From a bacterium (GTDB lineage: Bacteria; JAMOTN01), in NCBI GenBank assembly GCA_027062325.1, contig JAMOTN010000032.1, forward strand, positions 1 to 42,132: a DNA stretch of 42,132 nt. Reading direction: 5' to 3'. Within the stretch, counting starts at the first letter, position 1; each line of letters opens with the position of its first letter. Below are positions 27,398 to 35,093 of this stretch, one piece after another. The notes beneath the pieces are model-generated. The model did not search any database and had not been told where the DNA came from. It worked only from the letters and a program-made list of their open reading frames with translations. Made by a program: the position numbers and the translations under genes.

Positions 27398-27410
27398 GAT
27401 CCTAAGGATC
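27398..27410 (-). terminator. Small palindrome at the end of the minus-strand operon (weak stop candidate)
   Basis: GATCC/GGATC arms around a 3-base loop overlap the stop codon of the 986-residue lipoprotein gene and, on the minus strand, are followed by TTTAG. The stem is short, so it is only a weak terminator candidate. Confidence 0.25.
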
Positions 27411-30369
27411 AGTAATTATCGAATGTTACAATGTTGAAATTAATCACTCCTGATTCTTCGATTGGAGTGGCTTGCAAAGTATTTGTGAGATTTGTTGGTG
27501 ACCAGTATAGGAGTACACTATCACGGGTTATTGTATATACTGGGAGGAATACTCCGGGACACATTAAATTATCACGAGCTTGCATTCCAACTTTGACCAC
27601 TAAGGATATTGCTTCTGTGGCTGTAGGGCTTCCGATATCTATTGAGGATGTAGCTGGAGTTACAGCGGTTTCATTATTGGTGGTTTGATCTATGTAATAG
27701 AAAAGTTTGACAGGGGGTGTTAGGGAGGATAAAATACCATCCTCAACTCCATCTGCTGCATCAAATATTTGAACTAGCTCTGGGATAGATATGATTAGGT
27801 AGCTTGGGTATGGGAATTTTCCAGAAGTAATTATTTGGAATACTGGAGCTCTGTCTGATCTGTATTTTATTACAGAACTTGTCCAGACAAAGTCTGAATA
27901 GGTAAGAGTTGTTCCCAGAGTTTCTGTTGATGAGTATAGAGACATTGAGAATGTATTGTTGTTTGCTGGATCAAATTCAATAACTTGAGACATGTGATTA
28001 TATCTTAGAGGTAAACCGGATACTTTTATCAAACATGCTTTTTGAAGTTTCGATAGATTAATTTCATCAACTATGCTAACGTTTATAGTTGCATATGTCA
28101 TTACGGCTATATTCAAGTCAAGTTTCCACTGCTGATAATGACCTATTTCTTTTGAAAAAATGGGGATAACTAGTTGAACTTTGTAAGGAGATACGGTGCC
28201 GCTAGATGAGCTTGCTGAGTAGAATGAAGCAGAAAATGTACTTTGGAGTGCGCCAGATTTAGGAAGTATTTCTAAGACGTCATCTGTATTTTTAACAATT
28301 TCTAAGGTAGAAGGAGAACTCGGTATAACCTCAAGTGAAACTTGAAGTGGCTGAGTGTTTTGATATACCGGTATTGTTCCGCCTGCTTCGGTAAATGGAT
28401 AGCCAATTATGAAGTAGGGATTGTAAAAATCGGGATCGTATAGGGCATAATGGACAATTATGGGCCAAGAATTTTCCTGAGTTGCTAAAATAAATATATC
28501 GTTTGCTTTTACTTCAAGAGTTGTATTATGATCAGTGTCCCATGCTTCTCTTACGGCTAGTTTAACAACTAGGTCGATTAAGTCAACTGATGAATTTATG
28601 GATAAGGCAGGTAGTGAGGTTGTTGTGTTGTCAATAGTTATAGATCCTGATGAGTTTTGTTTACCAGTTTCGTATAGAGGTATTTCGGAAGTGGTGAGGT
28701 TGTCTTCATCAATTATTGGAGGTATTTCTATAGAAGGGATGGCTTGATGAATGGCAAATGCTAAGTATTCTAGAGCTATAACCAAAGTATAGGAGCCTGA
28801 AAAGGATTCGACAGTGTTTATAGCAGAAGGTGGGAGTGAAAGAGTTGTACTTCCTAGCAGTGTACCGTTGGAGTCGTATACTTTTACGTAAGTGTTGGAA
28901 GCATCTATATCTATTACGCCTTCATCACTCGATAAAACAATATTTCCAAATAAGATCTTTCTTATTATAGGTGTTGCGCCTGTTTTAATATCAGGGGGTA
29001 GTTCGTTGCTTGTTAGAAGAGTTCCTATAGAAACCTCGGTACTTGATAGAAAATTCTGTAAAGCTCTGTACTCCATGTATATTTCAAATGTGACTCGTGC
29101 ATTGGCAAAATTTGCTTGAGCAAATGGAAGGGAAAACGATAGGTTGTAGGCTTCAGTCGTTGCCCAAAGTGCACTAAGTGTTAATGAAGGATCAGCTGAT
29201 ATTCCTGATATTGGGGAGAAAGCAGATACGACGTTGTTCATATCAAACGGAAAAATGTAGTAATTAAAATCCTGAATGGTTGATCCACCGTTTGGAGATA
29301 ATTCAAGTGTAGAGTATGGAACAATAGTTTTGACTAAAGGTGAATTAATTAATCCAAATCCTATAGGTGGTTCCATATAGGGGGAGAGGTAAGTTGCAAA
29401 GTGATTTTGAAAAGATATTTCAGGAATTTCGGTTGGAAGTTGAGGAGTGGTGGTTGTGACTAACCATTGTCTTATTACTTTAGTAACTGAAGTGGTTGAG
29501 GTTACAATATTTACAACCTCGACAGTTCCTAACTCATCCTCTATTTCATCATAAGTTTCTGATAGGGCATCAGTTACGTCTTCGAATGCTTCTGTTTCTA
29601 TTTCCGGAACAATTTCTTCACTTGGAAGCCCAGCTTCTGTAATTGCTTGTGAGATTAACTCTTTGAATTCTGTTGTAGAGTTTATTTCCGTTGTGGTAAG
29701 CTTTTCCATGATTTTTACAATAGCGTGTTCTGAACTTGCGAATGATTTTATCTTATCTTTTGCTTTATCACCTAAAAGGGCAGTTACAGTTTTGTCAACT
29801 TTATCTTGAATGGAGATTAATGAGCATATATCTGATAAACCAAACAGTTCATTTTCTATGCTGCCTTCTGTAGTGGAATTTATGATGTCCATATTTCTAT
29901 ACTTAGAAAGATTTCGAATGAATTTTACAGCGAATTTCCTTGCATATTTGTAGTTTTTTGTTCTTTCAAATTTTTGACTTGATAGGTGAGAGAATGGAGA
30001 TGAGATAGAGCGTATAATGCCTGGTTGGTTTGGATCTACTACTAGTTCCATAGTAGGACCAATTATGGTTCCATTAGTTGCAAGTTTTACAACTTCAAGG
30101 AGAAGATAACTTGTATTTGCTGGGAATGAAACGTCAAGAGATGTTATTGGTGCACCCCAAAAGTCATTTGTGGATATGAGCTGTTTTGAACCATCTTTAT
30201 CTACAGCGTAAGTGTAAACTCTAAAGTTTTGCCATACTTCATCTGCAGCTCCTATTACTAGTGTTTTCTTACCAGCTGATTGTTTTAAGAAGTCCATACA
30301 AGCAGTGAGGGTTATACTTAGTAAGGCGGCTAATAAAGCAGCGAGGAAAGGATAAGCTTTAGATTTCAT
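27409..30369 (-). CDS. Large lipoprotein (986 aa) of unknown function
   Basis: The signal peptide ends in lipobox LTAC (C24). The mature protein is very large, Ser/Thr/Asn/Ile-rich and poor in Cys, with many beta-strand patterns: typical of surface-exposed or secreted beta-rich proteins. An early helical part (residues 140-290) is charged. No named domain was seen. The ATG at 30369 has AGGAGGG upstream. Its composition (Thr/Ser high, Lys low in the second half) differs from the cytoplasmic proteins nearby. It is 18 bases downstream of the cyclase gene and is probably its co-transcribed partner or the output of that signalling set. Confidence 0.75.
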   Translation of the reverse strand: MKSKAYPFLAALLAALLSITLTACMDFLKQSAGKKTLVIGAADEVWQNFRVYTYAVDKDGSKQLISTNDFWGAPITSLDVSFPANTSYLLLEVVKLATNGTIIGPTMELVVDPNQPGIIRSISSPFSHLSSQKFERTKNYKYARKFAVKFIRNLSKYRNMDIINSTTEGSIENELFGLSDICSLISIQDKVDKTVTALLGDKAKDKIKSFASSEHAIVKIMEKLTTTEINSTTEFKELISQAITEAGLPSEEIVPEIETEAFEDVTDALSETYDEIEDELGTVEVVNIVTSTTSVTKVIRQWLVTTTTPQLPTEIPEISFQNHFATYLSPYMEPPIGFGLINSPLVKTIVPYSTLELSPNGGSTIQDFNYYIFPFDMNNVVSAFSPISGISADPSLTLSALWATTEAYNLSFSLPFAQANFANARVTFEIYMEYRALQNFLSSTEVSIGTLLTSNELPPDIKTGATPIIRKILFGNIVLSSDEGVIDIDASNTYVKVYDSNGTLLGSTTLSLPPSAINTVESFSGSYTLVIALEYLAFAIHQAIPSIEIPPIIDEDNLTTSEIPLYETGKQNSSGSITIDNTTTSLPALSINSSVDLIDLVVKLAVREAWDTDHNTTLEVKANDIFILATQENSWPIIVHYALYDPDFYNPYFIIGYPFTEAGGTIPVYQNTQPLQVSLEVIPSSPSTLEIVKNTDDVLEILPKSGALQSTFSASFYSASSSSGTVSPYKVQLVIPIFSKEIGHYQQWKLDLNIAVMTYATINVSIVDEINLSKLQKACLIKVSGLPLRYNHMSQVIEFDPANNNTFSMSLYSSTETLGTTLTYSDFVWTSSVIKYRSDRAPVFQIITSGKFPYPSYLIISIPELVQIFDAADGVEDGILSSLTPPVKLFYYIDQTTNNETAVTPATSSIDIGSPTATEAISLVVKVGMQARDNLMCPGVFLPVYTITRDSVLLYWSPTNLTNTLQATPIEESGVINFNIVTFDNY

Positions 30370-30387
30370 TATTATCCCTCCTAAAGA

Positions 30388-31926
30388 TCACTTGGTTCTG
30401 AATGTAAATACACCATCCCAATTTTCTTCAATACCATTTTTAATGAAAAATTCGCATCTTGATGCAAATACTTGTGAAGGTTTGTCTCCCTTTTCAGCAA
30501 GTTGTGAGAAAATTTTTAAAGCGTGATCAAATTTTTCATCCCAGTAGTATTTGAGGGCATCTTCGAATTTATTGATGATTTCCATATTTTCTTCGCTTTT
30601 TTCGAGAAGTTCGTATATCATTACAGGTAAAATTTTGCCTTTGACTCTGACTTTGTCAAGGAGGCGAAAAGTAAATTGACTTTCTTTTAACAGCTCTTCG
30701 TCTATTGCGGATACTGTAAATTCACTTATCACGTTTGTGGTTCCATATTGTTTGCAGAGTCCTTCTAAACGAGAAGCAAGATTTACTGTGTCTCCTATTA
30801 CTGTATAGTCAAATCTATTTTGAGAACCAATATTCCCCACAACTGCAACACCTGTATTTATGCCAATGCCGATTTTTACATGGGGGAGTGAATATTCATC
30901 CATAATATGATTAACTTCCTCAAGTTTTGAAAGCATCTCGAATGCTGATTTACATGCCCACCATGCGTGGTTATCGTAAGGAAGTGGAGCTCCGAATATA
31001 GCCATTATTGCATCACCAATGTATTTATCAAGAAAGCCTTGATTAGCCAAAATTATGCTAGTCATGGGTTCAAAGTATAGATTTAGAAACTTAACTAGCT
31101 GTGATGGATCAAGTGATTCTGATATGTTTGTAAAACTTCTTATATCTGAAAAAAGGATACTTACTTCTCTCTTCTCGCCTCCCAAAGACAACTTTTCCGG
31201 ATTTTTAACTACAATTTCCAGTAGTTCTTTTGAAATGTAGTTAGAGAAAGCTTCTCGTAGCATCTTTTCAGTAGCTGACATACTCAAGAAATCTGCGGTA
31301 ATAGTTGCAGTTATGTAGGCTAAAAAGGAAAAAGATTCATGGACAAAAATGTGATTGTGTTGCATTAAGAATATTGCAGAGGCTATTGGAGTTAGTGCAA
31401 AGAAAAATTTGAGCAACTTGCTGGTAAAAGCTGAAAATTCGAGGAAAACAGACAGTTTTGCTATACTCCATCCAAGAAATGCAAATATTATGACAAACAA
31501 AACGTCTATATAGGCATATTCTAAAAGCCAAGCTCTTCTGATAAGGTTTTCTGCCATAATCATGTGAGCGTAGACTCCGGGGGCTGATGGAGATGTGGGG
31601 AAGGCTCTTAAGTCTCCAATTCCCTTTTCAGTTGCACCTATAAATACAAGTTTCCCCTTTACTTCGTTAGTGCTTATTTGATCATTATACACCTTGATAG
31701 CGGATATTGAACGGAAATCTTTATCGAATGTCGGAATTACTACTCCTTGAAATGGATATGTAATACTTCTCTTGGGGTTTTTTATATCTGTGTATTTAAC
31801 TCCAACCAGTAAATTCGAGTCTGAAAGTTTGTGATTTGATTTTAGAATGAATATGGGGATTAGGTTTGTGGCGTATTTTTTGTAGAGATAAAGCTCTGCA
31901 GCTTTCCAGCCTAGGGATGGACTATG
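30388..31926 (-). CDS. CHASE2-adenylate cyclase, C-terminal part (cyclase domain) after the frameshift
   Basis: Continuation, in the -1 frame, of the CHASE2 gene at 31911-32630. From base 31926 the frame is open without a stop: the rest of the CHASE2 domain (PSLGWKAAELYLYKKYAT, then GKLVFIGATEKGIGDLRAFP...PGVYAHM), three membrane helices, and a class III nucleotide cyclase domain. The cyclase has both metal Asp residues (LFSDIRSFT and KYIGDAIMA), the Lys of DKYIGD, the Thr of DYTVIGDT for adenine choice, and Asn/Arg of NLASRLE, so it should make cAMP. The first in-frame start codon is GTG 31692, which lacks sense as a true start because it is inside CHASE2. A helical tail follows the cyclase domain. 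Confidence 0.8.
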   Translation of the reverse strand, partial: HSPSLGWKAAELYLYKKYATNLIPIFILKSNHKLSDSNLLVGVKYTDIKNPKRSITYPFQGVVIPTFDKDFRSISAIKVYNDQISTNEVKGKLVFIGATEKGIGDLRAFPTSPSAPGVYAHMIMAENLIRRAWLLEYAYIDVLFVIIFAFLGWSIAKLSVFLEFSAFTSKLLKFFFALTPIASAIFLMQHNHIFVHESFSFLAYITATITADFLSMSATEKMLREAFSNYISKELLEIVVKNPEKLSLGGEKREVSILFSDIRSFTNISESLDPSQLVKFLNLYFEPMTSIILANQGFLDKYIGDAIMAIFGAPLPYDNHAWWACKSAFEMLSKLEEVNHIMDEYSLPHVKIGIGINTGVAVVGNIGSQNRFDYTVIGDTVNLASRLEGLCKQYGTTNVISEFTVSAIDEELLKESQFTFRLLDKVRVKGKILPVMIYELLEKSEENMEIINKFEDALKYYWDEKFDHALKIFSQLAEKGDKPSQVFASRCEFFIKNGIEENWDGVFTFRTK

Positions 31927-32630
31927 GGGAAATAACCTCTCAGTATTCCATCTGGATCTGGCTTGGTAAATAGAGCACCATGAGGGACAGCTGAATCATC
32001 TTCGCAAAATGCTATTTCTGGTATTGTTACGTCTAGAGATTCTAAACGAGGTATTGAGTATACGTTGCAAGTATAAGCTGAAAATTTTTCCATTGTCCAC
32101 CTTTCTAGAAAAGGAATAGTGTTGACATCTGCTTCTAAAAAGTTTATCAACTCAGAGTCTTCAAGTACGCATAGATCGTCTTCTGATAAGCGATTAGATG
32201 AAGGTTGAGGCATAAGTCCTGTTACAAGCGCATAATTTGCGGATGCTAGACAGAAGGCTTTGTTAAGAGCAGCGTCGCTTTCTGGATTACTGGGTTCTGA
32301 AAAGGTTATGTCTAGTGCAATTACTGATGCTCCTTTTTTAAATAGGTTATCTATTATTTTTGCCATAATTTTTCTATCCCATGGCCACCTTCCAAGTTTG
32401 TTAATGCTGAGGGTATCAATTGCGACGAGTACGCAGTTCTTAGGGATAGGATGCGGAAATAAAAAATTTCTAAGGTTAAGCTTCATGTCATCAAACCTTA
32501 AGAGAGGAATTGTTTTTCTAAAAAAGTATGGCTGCTTAAGAGCTATCCAGGAAAAAACAATGATTATAACTGATAATGATAGCGCTTCTACTAGAATATT
32601 CTTCCAGTTCTTCGAAATTTTGAATATCAA
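31911..32630 (-). CDS. CHASE2-adenylate cyclase, N-terminal part (sensor), ends at an early stop
   Basis: A 239-residue open frame: a membrane helix at about 14-32, then the first part of a CHASE2 extracytoplasmic sensor (LVAIDTLSINKLGRWPWDR, VIALDITFSE, KPDPDGILRGYFP). The frame then leaves homology and stops after IVHP. The -1 frame picks up CHASE2 at exactly that point, so this gene and the 30388-31926 part were one. The TTG at 32630 has AAGGAGG 7 bases upstream. It is either a pseudogene or an assembly indel, or the two are joined by -1 slippage at TTTCCCC. CHASE2 proteins sense envelope signals and control the attached cyclase. Confidence 0.78.
   Translation of the reverse strand: MIFKISKNWKNILVEALSLSVIIIVFSWIALKQPYFFRKTIPLLRFDDMKLNLRNFLFPHPIPKNCVLVAIDTLSINKLGRWPWDRKIMAKIIDNLFKKGASVIALDITFSEPSNPESDAALNKAFCLASANYALVTGLMPQPSSNRLSEDDLCVLEDSELINFLEADVNTIPFLERWTMEKFSAYTCNVYSIPRLESLDVTIPEIAFCEDDSAVPHGALFTKPDPDGILRGYFPIVHP
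31926..31932 (-). other. T TTC CCC slippery heptamer at the frame change
   Basis: On the minus strand the bases read T TTC CCC in the phase of the N-terminal frame, the X XXY YYZ layout of -1 slippery sites. A -1 slip gives ...GYFP then HSPSLGW, rejoining CHASE2 homology with no residues lost. The site lies just before the stop codon at 31913-31911. Equally, one C may be missing from the assembly. Confidence 0.5.
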
Positions 32631-32664
32631 AGTAATGCCTCCTTGAAAGTAGATATTTTAGGCT

Positions 32665-33498
32665 TTATTTGGTGCAGCAGTTGCAGTCTAAAGTGTCGCG
32701 GAGGATTTGGTTGATGTCCAGTTTTAGGTTAATTACTTTGTCGTCAACAGATACTCCGACTTCTTCCAGATTGTCTGTAGCTTTTATGCTAATTCTCTTT
32801 GGAAGTTGCGGGAGTTTTGCAGTTTGAAGGACCTGCTTTGTTATTACCGATGTTGTGCGGGCAAGGGCTGCAGGATTTTGAATCATTTTACCAAGGGTTT
32901 GCTTAGGCAGTGATACCTTTAGAGTAACTGGAGGCTTTCCTCTTGATACAAATGCCATAGTGTTTGGGAAAATGTCGAAAGTTTTGTTGTTGATAAGGTC
33001 ACGGACTTCGACTCTTCCCTCTGCTAGAAATACTGAAGTTGCGGTTGGAGCAACGTCTAAAGCGAAAGTAGTGCCTTTTACTCCTATAACGCTTGTTGGA
33101 GTGCGGACATCAAACTTACCGCGGAATTTCATTTTTGAAATTTTGAAAGCTACAGAGCCACGTTGAACATTTAGGTTGTCGCCTTTTGTTTTTATACCAA
33201 GAAGCTTCATTCTTGAACGTGCTTCAAGTGTTACTTTGCTACCATCTGCTAGGAGGAGAACGGCTCTAGAGCGGCGCTTGGTTCTGATAAGATAACCTTT
33301 ATAGAGAAGGTCTCCAACTTTTGCTTTTATTGGGCGGATGCTGTTTGGTTTCATTATTTGAACTCTACCTTTCAGCGCTACTATTTTTGCAAGCCATCCA
33401 GAATTGACTTGAGGTTGTTTATTTTGATTTGAGACAGATAAGTTGATAGCGGTTATTAATAGAAGTGGTATTAATAACATACTCTTTATGTTTTTCAT
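32665..33498 (-). CDS. FecR-domain exported protein
   Basis: A 277-residue protein with a signal peptide (MKNIKSMLLIPLLLITAINLSVS). The FecR domain is clear: VALKGRVQIMKP, AKVGDLLYKGYLIRTKRRSRAVLLLADGSKVTLEARS, and the closing DVRTPTSVIGVKGTTFALDV. The C-terminus is helical and ends in a tight Cys cluster (DCNCCTK). The start has a G-rich ribosome site. FecR domains sit in the periplasm or envelope and take part in signal passing; here the gene lies between a TPR/barrel gene and a CHASE2-cyclase gene. Ligand unknown. Confidence 0.87.
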   Translation of the reverse strand: MKNIKSMLLIPLLLITAINLSVSNQNKQPQVNSGWLAKIVALKGRVQIMKPNSIRPIKAKVGDLLYKGYLIRTKRRSRAVLLLADGSKVTLEARSRMKLLGIKTKGDNLNVQRGSVAFKISKMKFRGKFDVRTPTSVIGVKGTTFALDVAPTATSVFLAEGRVEVRDLINNKTFDIFPNTMAFVSRGKPPVTLKVSLPKQTLGKMIQNPAALARTTSVITKQVLQTAKLPQLPKRISIKATDNLEEVGVSVDDKVINLKLDINQILRDTLDCNCCTK

Positions 33499-33533
33499 TT
33501 TGACTCCCCCCTATATAGAACTTGTGAATTTTG

Positions 33534-35093
33534 TCATTTTACGAGCCATTTGAAGTAAAGTGTGATGGTCCATCTGTCAAAATTGTAAGATTGGAGAGAA
33601 GATGATGAGTTTATGTATGCCATATTTACTCCAACCCAACTTTTTCTAAATTTGGATTCACGATTCAATATTATAGTGCTTGTGTTATCTTTTCGTTTTT
33701 TATACACGACGTCCGGGAGTAGCAGGTAATCCAATTGGGCTGAGTCGTAGTTGTAATGTGTCCATAGGATAAGTGCAAAAGTTCTGTTGTTAGAACCAAT
33801 TTTTGAAAGAGATCCCCAAATTTGTGTTGCTTTGTTATCCCAGAAATAACCTGTAGCGTTTTCTCTTATGTAATTAAAACCAAATTTTACAGAAGGACGT
33901 GGAATTTCTATGATGGTGCCAATGCTGTATTTTCTAGAGTCACGAATATTAGCTTCGTCTGTTGGATCATTTTCAAAGTTGTTTATCTCCATTAAAAATG
34001 GAAAGCTTAGTGTTATGTTGTGGAGAATGGGGAATTTAAGAGTTATTCCTGTGGAAAATTGGTTCATGTATGTGCTGTCTCCTAGCAATATGCGTTTTGT
34101 GCTAATGGGGAATTCGAAACTGTACGAATCTTTCAGAAATTTTATAAGTGTGGTGGATGTAATGTTGAGAATGTTGTACTCATTGAACTTACTATATATT
34201 GTTTTGTCTATTGAAAGTGAGTAGTTGCTGATTGCATTGCCTATGGGATGCCTTTTGAAGACTATCAAACTGGCTTTTTCACCCCACGAATCTTGAGATG
34301 TTGGAATGTTTGTTGCAGCGTCTGGAGTAGATGAAACATTTGTATCTTTGAAACCTCCAAGTTTTAGTATGGCTTGCCATCCTTTGGAGTTGATGTTGGT
34401 GAGAGTTTTTATCTCTGTTGAGGCTTTGTCAGCCCATTCGGTTACGGGATTTAATCTATAGGCTGCTTTGATCTTTTCAATAGCTTTCTTTCTGAAAAAG
34501 AGACGAGCCATTGCTTGGCCTTTTAAAAGTAGAGCTTTTTGTTTTGGTAAGAAAGGTCCGAATTTCTCAACTTTTACTCTACCAGCGTACTTCATTGCAT
34601 TAAGATACGCTGCTTTTTTTATGGCAATTTCAGCCAAAACTAAAAATTTTAAGCTTTTTAAAGGTTCTTTTAGATATTTGGGAAGAAGTTTTCTGCTTTT
34701 GTGAATTTGGAAGTTTGCAAGTGCAAGTTCTGCTTGTAGAATTTTACGAAGCTTTTTACTTTTGATTTTAGTAGTTACAGATTGAGCTCGTTCAAAATCT
34801 CCTATTTTAAAAAAAGCTTGTTCAAGATATGTAAGGAGTAGATCGTGTTGCTGTTGAGTTAGAGAAATGTTTTTAATAAGCCAAGGAATAACTGCTATAA
34901 TTTCATCAAAATCTTCGTCAAAAAATAGCTCATCTATTCGTTTAATAATTAAAGAACGATTTGAAAGGTTGGTTGGGTCGAAGTTTAAAATGTTTTTGAC
35001 GTCTTCTAATGATATTTGTGATTGGGAGAGTAAAGTGAAGGAGAGTAATGTGAAAAAAATAATAAAAAATAACTTCTTTGCTGTACTTGGCAT
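33534..35093 (-). CDS. Exported TPR protein with a probable outer-membrane beta-barrel
   Basis: A 519-residue protein with a signal peptide (MPSTAKKLFFIIFFTLLSFTLLS). The first 220 residues form TPR-like helix pairs (FFKIGDFERAQSVTTKIKS, AYLNAMKYAGRVKV). The last 280 have alternating strands rich in Tyr, Asn and Ser, and end in an aromatic strand (WTITLYFKWLVK), as expected of a barrel in the outer membrane. The ATG has AGGAGG upstream. It is the first gene of the minus-strand set FecR, CHASE2-cyclase and large lipoprotein, with gaps of 35, 34 and 18 bases. The barrel call is inferred from pattern only. Confidence 0.72.
   Translation of the reverse strand: MPSTAKKLFFIIFFTLLSFTLLSQSQISLEDVKNILNFDPTNLSNRSLIIKRIDELFFDEDFDEIIAVIPWLIKNISLTQQQHDLLLTYLEQAFFKIGDFERAQSVTTKIKSKKLRKILQAELALANFQIHKSRKLLPKYLKEPLKSLKFLVLAEIAIKKAAYLNAMKYAGRVKVEKFGPFLPKQKALLLKGQAMARLFFRKKAIEKIKAAYRLNPVTEWADKASTEIKTLTNINSKGWQAILKLGGFKDTNVSSTPDAATNIPTSQDSWGEKASLIVFKRHPIGNAISNYSLSIDKTIYSKFNEYNILNITSTTLIKFLKDSYSFEFPISTKRILLGDSTYMNQFSTGITLKFPILHNITLSFPFLMEINNFENDPTDEANIRDSRKYSIGTIIEIPRPSVKFGFNYIRENATGYFWDNKATQIWGSLSKIGSNNRTFALILWTHYNYDSAQLDYLLLPDVVYKKRKDNTSTIILNRESKFRKSWVGVNMAYINSSSSLQSYNFDRWTITLYFKWLVK

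Follow-up and report, generated by a model that had tools for sequence, protein, structure and literature searches.

A CHASE2-adenylate cyclase gene with a frame break beside a slippery-like heptamer, very probably caused by a short deletion

Described systems and the frames of the gene

CyaD1, CyaD2 and CyaK from Sinorhizobium meliloti consist of a CHASE2 domain followed by a transmembrane part and then by a class III cyclase domain, and sensing by way of NsrA, an outer-membrane barrel protein, has been described for CHASE2 cyclases (PMC13001267); likewise, an operon combining LysM/FecR with a CHASE2 kinase has been described (PMC5192318). Bacterial -1 programmed frameshifting, exemplified by dnaX and the IS3 family, occurs at an X XXY YYZ heptamer in phase, and U_UU.C_CC.A is listed among the motifs exceeding 0.10% in E. 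coli without stimulators (PMC4066793). To call programmed frameshifting, a site has to be conserved throughout a gene cluster, while singleton frame breaks are mostly put down to indel mutation or sequencing error (PMC3711429).

The gene analyzed here lies on the minus strand of a window of 42,132 nt, which is the whole stretch of DNA examined. It has the same domain order as the S. meliloti cyclases, but differs from them in that its frame is broken inside CHASE2 and about seven codons are missing. In agreement with the original prediction, two minus-strand frames together make up one CHASE2-cyclase: in a Pfam profile search, PF05226 matches both halves (6.7e-20 and 7.2e-14) and PF00211 matches the second frame (5e-28), both families scoring above their own Pfam cut-offs. 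The zero frame (31,911–32,630, minus strand) comprises 239 codons, from a TTG start at 32,630, shortly preceded by AAGGAGG, a good Shine-Dalgarno sequence, to a TAG stop at 31,911. Its product contains an N-terminal hydrophobic segment and the first half of CHASE2 (positions 16–121 of the PF05226 profile) as far as GYFPIVH, with a C-terminal end that reads KPDPDGILRGYFPIVHP up to the stop. The -1 frame is free of stops from 31,995 to 30,388, and its continuation (30,388–31,929, minus strand; 513 aa counted from 31,929) contains, in this order, the second half of CHASE2 from PSLGW (profile positions 130–250), a transmembrane part, an intact class III adenylate cyclase domain and a TPR-like tail.

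The cyclase domain in the second frame is similar to, and was aligned with, solved adenylate cyclases, and relatives align across the full length of the joined CHASE2-cyclase. The motifs FSDIRSFT, DKYIGDAIMAIFG and YTVIGDTVNLASRLEG, which we take to be the class III catalytic motifs on the roles of their residues in class III cyclases, are all present in the -1 frame, so the claim that the catalytic residues had been kept stands. A CHASE2 domain thus precedes a class III cyclase domain, as is expected in this family, but there is no single continuous frame with a complete CHASE2, the frame being broken and a hairpin segment missing. The gene is a broken member of the CHASE2-adenylate cyclases, not a working one.

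Position of the junction within CHASE2

The heptamer TTTCCCC (31,926–31,932, minus strand) has the coordinates and the X XXY YYZ phase previously ascribed to it, as confirmed by the zero-frame codons TAT TTC CCC at 31,932–31,926. It had also been taken as the exact junction of the two frames, and this placement did not hold. Spacing was measured on 46 aligned CHASE2 domains of relatives, these being CHASE2 proteins from distant genomes, by counting the residues that separate the conserved Arg in DGxxR from the Pro in PSL. The spacing was 13 in 33 of the 46 relatives and 14–23 in the others, and was below 13 in none. Slippage by -1 at TTTCCCC would produce R-GYFPHS-PSL, as would one added C; the spacing of 6 in this product is 7 residues below the minimum of these 46 relatives. 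The zero frame itself reads R-GYFPIVH, with seven family-like residues of which the last three lie past the heptamer, and six further codons would bring the spacing to exactly 13; the PIVH that the zero frame reaches in this way is also found in one relative, as part of REYPIVHYY.

With an HMM made from relatives, the best of 40 junction variants was IVH + 6X + PSL (155.5 bits), while the slip product ranked second to last (142.6 bits); IVH alone added a modest 3.5 bits. When slid over 210 residues, the 6X insert gained from +7 to +10 bits at the junction only, with at most +2.6 bits elsewhere, and the median gain was 9.9 bits when the same six residues were masked rather than deleted in the relatives. 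Because of these results, we place the missing DNA at about seven codons plus the frame; judging by homology, the break is at least three codons downstream of the heptamer. The HMM scan and the spacing in 46/46 relatives point to a deletion point at 31,911–31,923 (minus strand), where GTC CAT and CCA TCC overlap in GTCCATCCCTAG; the short version, as assembled, reads GTTATTTCCCCATAGTCCATCCCTAGG.

An AlphaFold model of the CHASE2 domain from one relative (L004; 28 sequences; pLDDT 92, pTM 0.90) shows a beta-hairpin with strands at residues 185–188 and 191–195. Residues 188–193 of this relative, which make up the turn and the greater part of strand two, are those missing here. As modeled, a slip product would be without this portion of the conserved core hairpin.

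Origin of the frame break

A CHASE2-adenylate cyclase couples an extracytoplasmic sensor anchored in the membrane to a class III cyclase, which makes the signal molecule cAMP. Very probably, a gene of this kind has recently lost some 22 bp inside CHASE2, just downstream of TTTCCCC. The length would be about 22 bp, or some close value that is also of the form 3n+1, as estimated from the spacing, and we infer that a single deletion event caused the frame break. The lost stretch would have lain between the zero-frame H and the -1-frame P; should the codons on each side of it be ancestral (CAT for H, CCA-T for P), CCAT would have stood at both ends in the parent, which would fit a slipped-strand deletion between short repeats. 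Besides shifting the frame, the loss would take away the hairpin turn together with most of its second strand, with translation then stopping at the TAG at 31,911 after half a CHASE2 domain and yielding no cyclase at useful levels. The product of the broken allele would probably be inactive. The event looks recent because the start of the gene, the remainder of its frame and the catalytic motifs are all intact, as are the closely spaced neighbors. Of the options considered originally, recent mutation is therefore supported, as a deletion of about 22 bp and not as a change at the heptamer.

The gene resembles singleton fs-genes (PMC3711429) in having one frame transition, homologs for each of its halves and no frameshift site known to be conserved, but with about 22 bp it has lost more than a one-base indel would account for; under that scheme it would be classed as a singleton frame break. 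On this reading it is an ordinary broken allele.

The original prediction also considered programmed -1 ribosomal frameshifting at T TTC CCC, by which slippage would yield the full CHASE2-cyclase and ribosomes that do not slip would release a cyclase-free sensor. The heptamer does stand in the correct phase within the 85-nt open overlap of the zero and -1 frames, and weak shifting at U_UU.C_CC.N heptamers is possible in E. coli (PMC4066793). However, the genes of the window (36.8 kb) contain 114 in-phase XXXYYYZ heptamers, which corresponds to 0.26 expected per 85 nt, so that the presence of one in the overlap is weak evidence, and TTTCCCC most likely lies beside the break by coincidence. There is a Shine-Dalgarno-like AGAGG 3 nt upstream of the heptamer, but the codons that spell it encode the conserved Arg and the Gly after it. 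No stimulatory RNA structure stood out downstream of the heptamer by folding without pseudoknots (z of -0.38, -0.45 and 0.61), so the proposed search for a downstream stem-loop gave no backing to frameshifting, and no known RNA elements were found. The listed CHASE2-cyclase relatives, all of them distant, are single-frame; an intact frame in relatives had been put forward as refuting evidence, and it was found at the level of distant relatives. Two scans of the genome collection did not retrieve a close relative that might carry the undeleted sequence, the collection having one genome for the phylum of the window. By the standard of PMC3711429, which asks for the site to recur throughout a gene cluster, the heptamer would not be called a programmed frameshift site.

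What decides against slippage is the protein itself: its product would be 7 residues short relative to 46/46 relatives, with most of the core hairpin missing. The slippery heptamer in phase in the overlap is present, as in frameshift genes, but the product is not identical with the family protein, and for that reason the gene fails a programmed-frameshift test on its most important point. It differs from dnaX and the IS3 family in that no stimulatory structure stands out, the site is not known to be conserved and the slip product would miss residues conserved in the family. We therefore hold programmed frameshifting to be very unlikely, and even less credit is due to a combination in which the hairpin would be genuinely shortened in a phylum-level lineage and low -1 slippage at TTTCCCC would supply the cyclase at a fixed sensor:cyclase ratio. 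If true, programmed frameshifting here would be a new way of setting the sensor-to-cyclase ratio, but the protein evidence speaks against it. An in-phase slippery heptamer next to a frame break is easily met by chance, and residue spacing compared with relatives tells a real frameshift site from a deletion.

The loss of a fifth C from the C4 run, by mutation or by assembly error, would be the smallest possible change giving two frames. Its parent product, however, would be the same as the slip product, with the same deficit of 7 residues below the minimum of 46/46 relatives, and a single-base change would leave the missing hairpin strand unexplained; a base lost at the heptamer, as had been suggested, is thus quite improbable. 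It is just conceivable that the lineage already had a shorter hairpin of its own and that one base was then gained or lost. Somewhat less improbable than the loss of a single C, though still unlikely, is that misassembly or strain mixing in a metagenome-like assembly produced the short deletion and that the living organism has an intact gene. The source assembly is fragmented (81 contigs, 84% complete) and the remainder of the gene is intact, but assemblies do not typically collapse by losing about 22 bp at a 4-bp repeat, no tandem repeat is present, and none of the other closely packed genes of the window shows an obvious second frame break.

Other readings were rejected. Internal re-initiation of the cyclase would depend on GTG 31,692, the first ATG, GTG or TTG in the -1 frame, which lacks a clear Shine-Dalgarno sequence and would begin translation inside CHASE2. 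No tandem repeat that could support phase variation was found. As for a recoded stop, TAG, TAA and TGA each end genes in the window, and the apparent internal TGA of a paralog on contig C26 of the same genome is simply the end of that gene.

Neighborhood and other cyclase-like genes

The broken gene lies in an apparent operon (27,409–35,093, minus strand) with genes for a 519-aa protein, a FecR protein and a 986-aa lipoprotein. The FecR-domain gene (32,665–33,498, minus strand; PF04773, 1.1e-15) is intact, is located upstream with a gap of 34 nt and probably belongs to the same operon as the CHASE2-cyclase. Downstream, after 18 nt, there is an intact gene (27,409–30,369, minus strand) for a predicted large lipoprotein of 986 aa, with an LTAC lipobox-like signal and no Pfam match. 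The 519-aa protein (33,534–35,093, minus strand) has no Pfam match and resembles an outer-membrane type protein with repeats and a beta-rich part. FecR-like proteins also adjoin CHASE2 genes in three other loci (L049, L052 and L021). On the precedents of the LysM/FecR and CHASE2 kinase operon (PMC5192318) and of the NsrA-dependent cyclases (PMC13001267), the operon may be an envelope-sensing cAMP module.

The genome carrying the window (G000) is the sole genome of its phylum in the collection searched, so its proteins have no close relatives there. It contains three more class III cyclase-like genes (L028, L029 and L030, on contigs C16, C26 and C35), none with a frame break inside the matched cyclase domain; the loss of the CHASE2-cyclase need therefore not abolish cyclic nucleotide synthesis.
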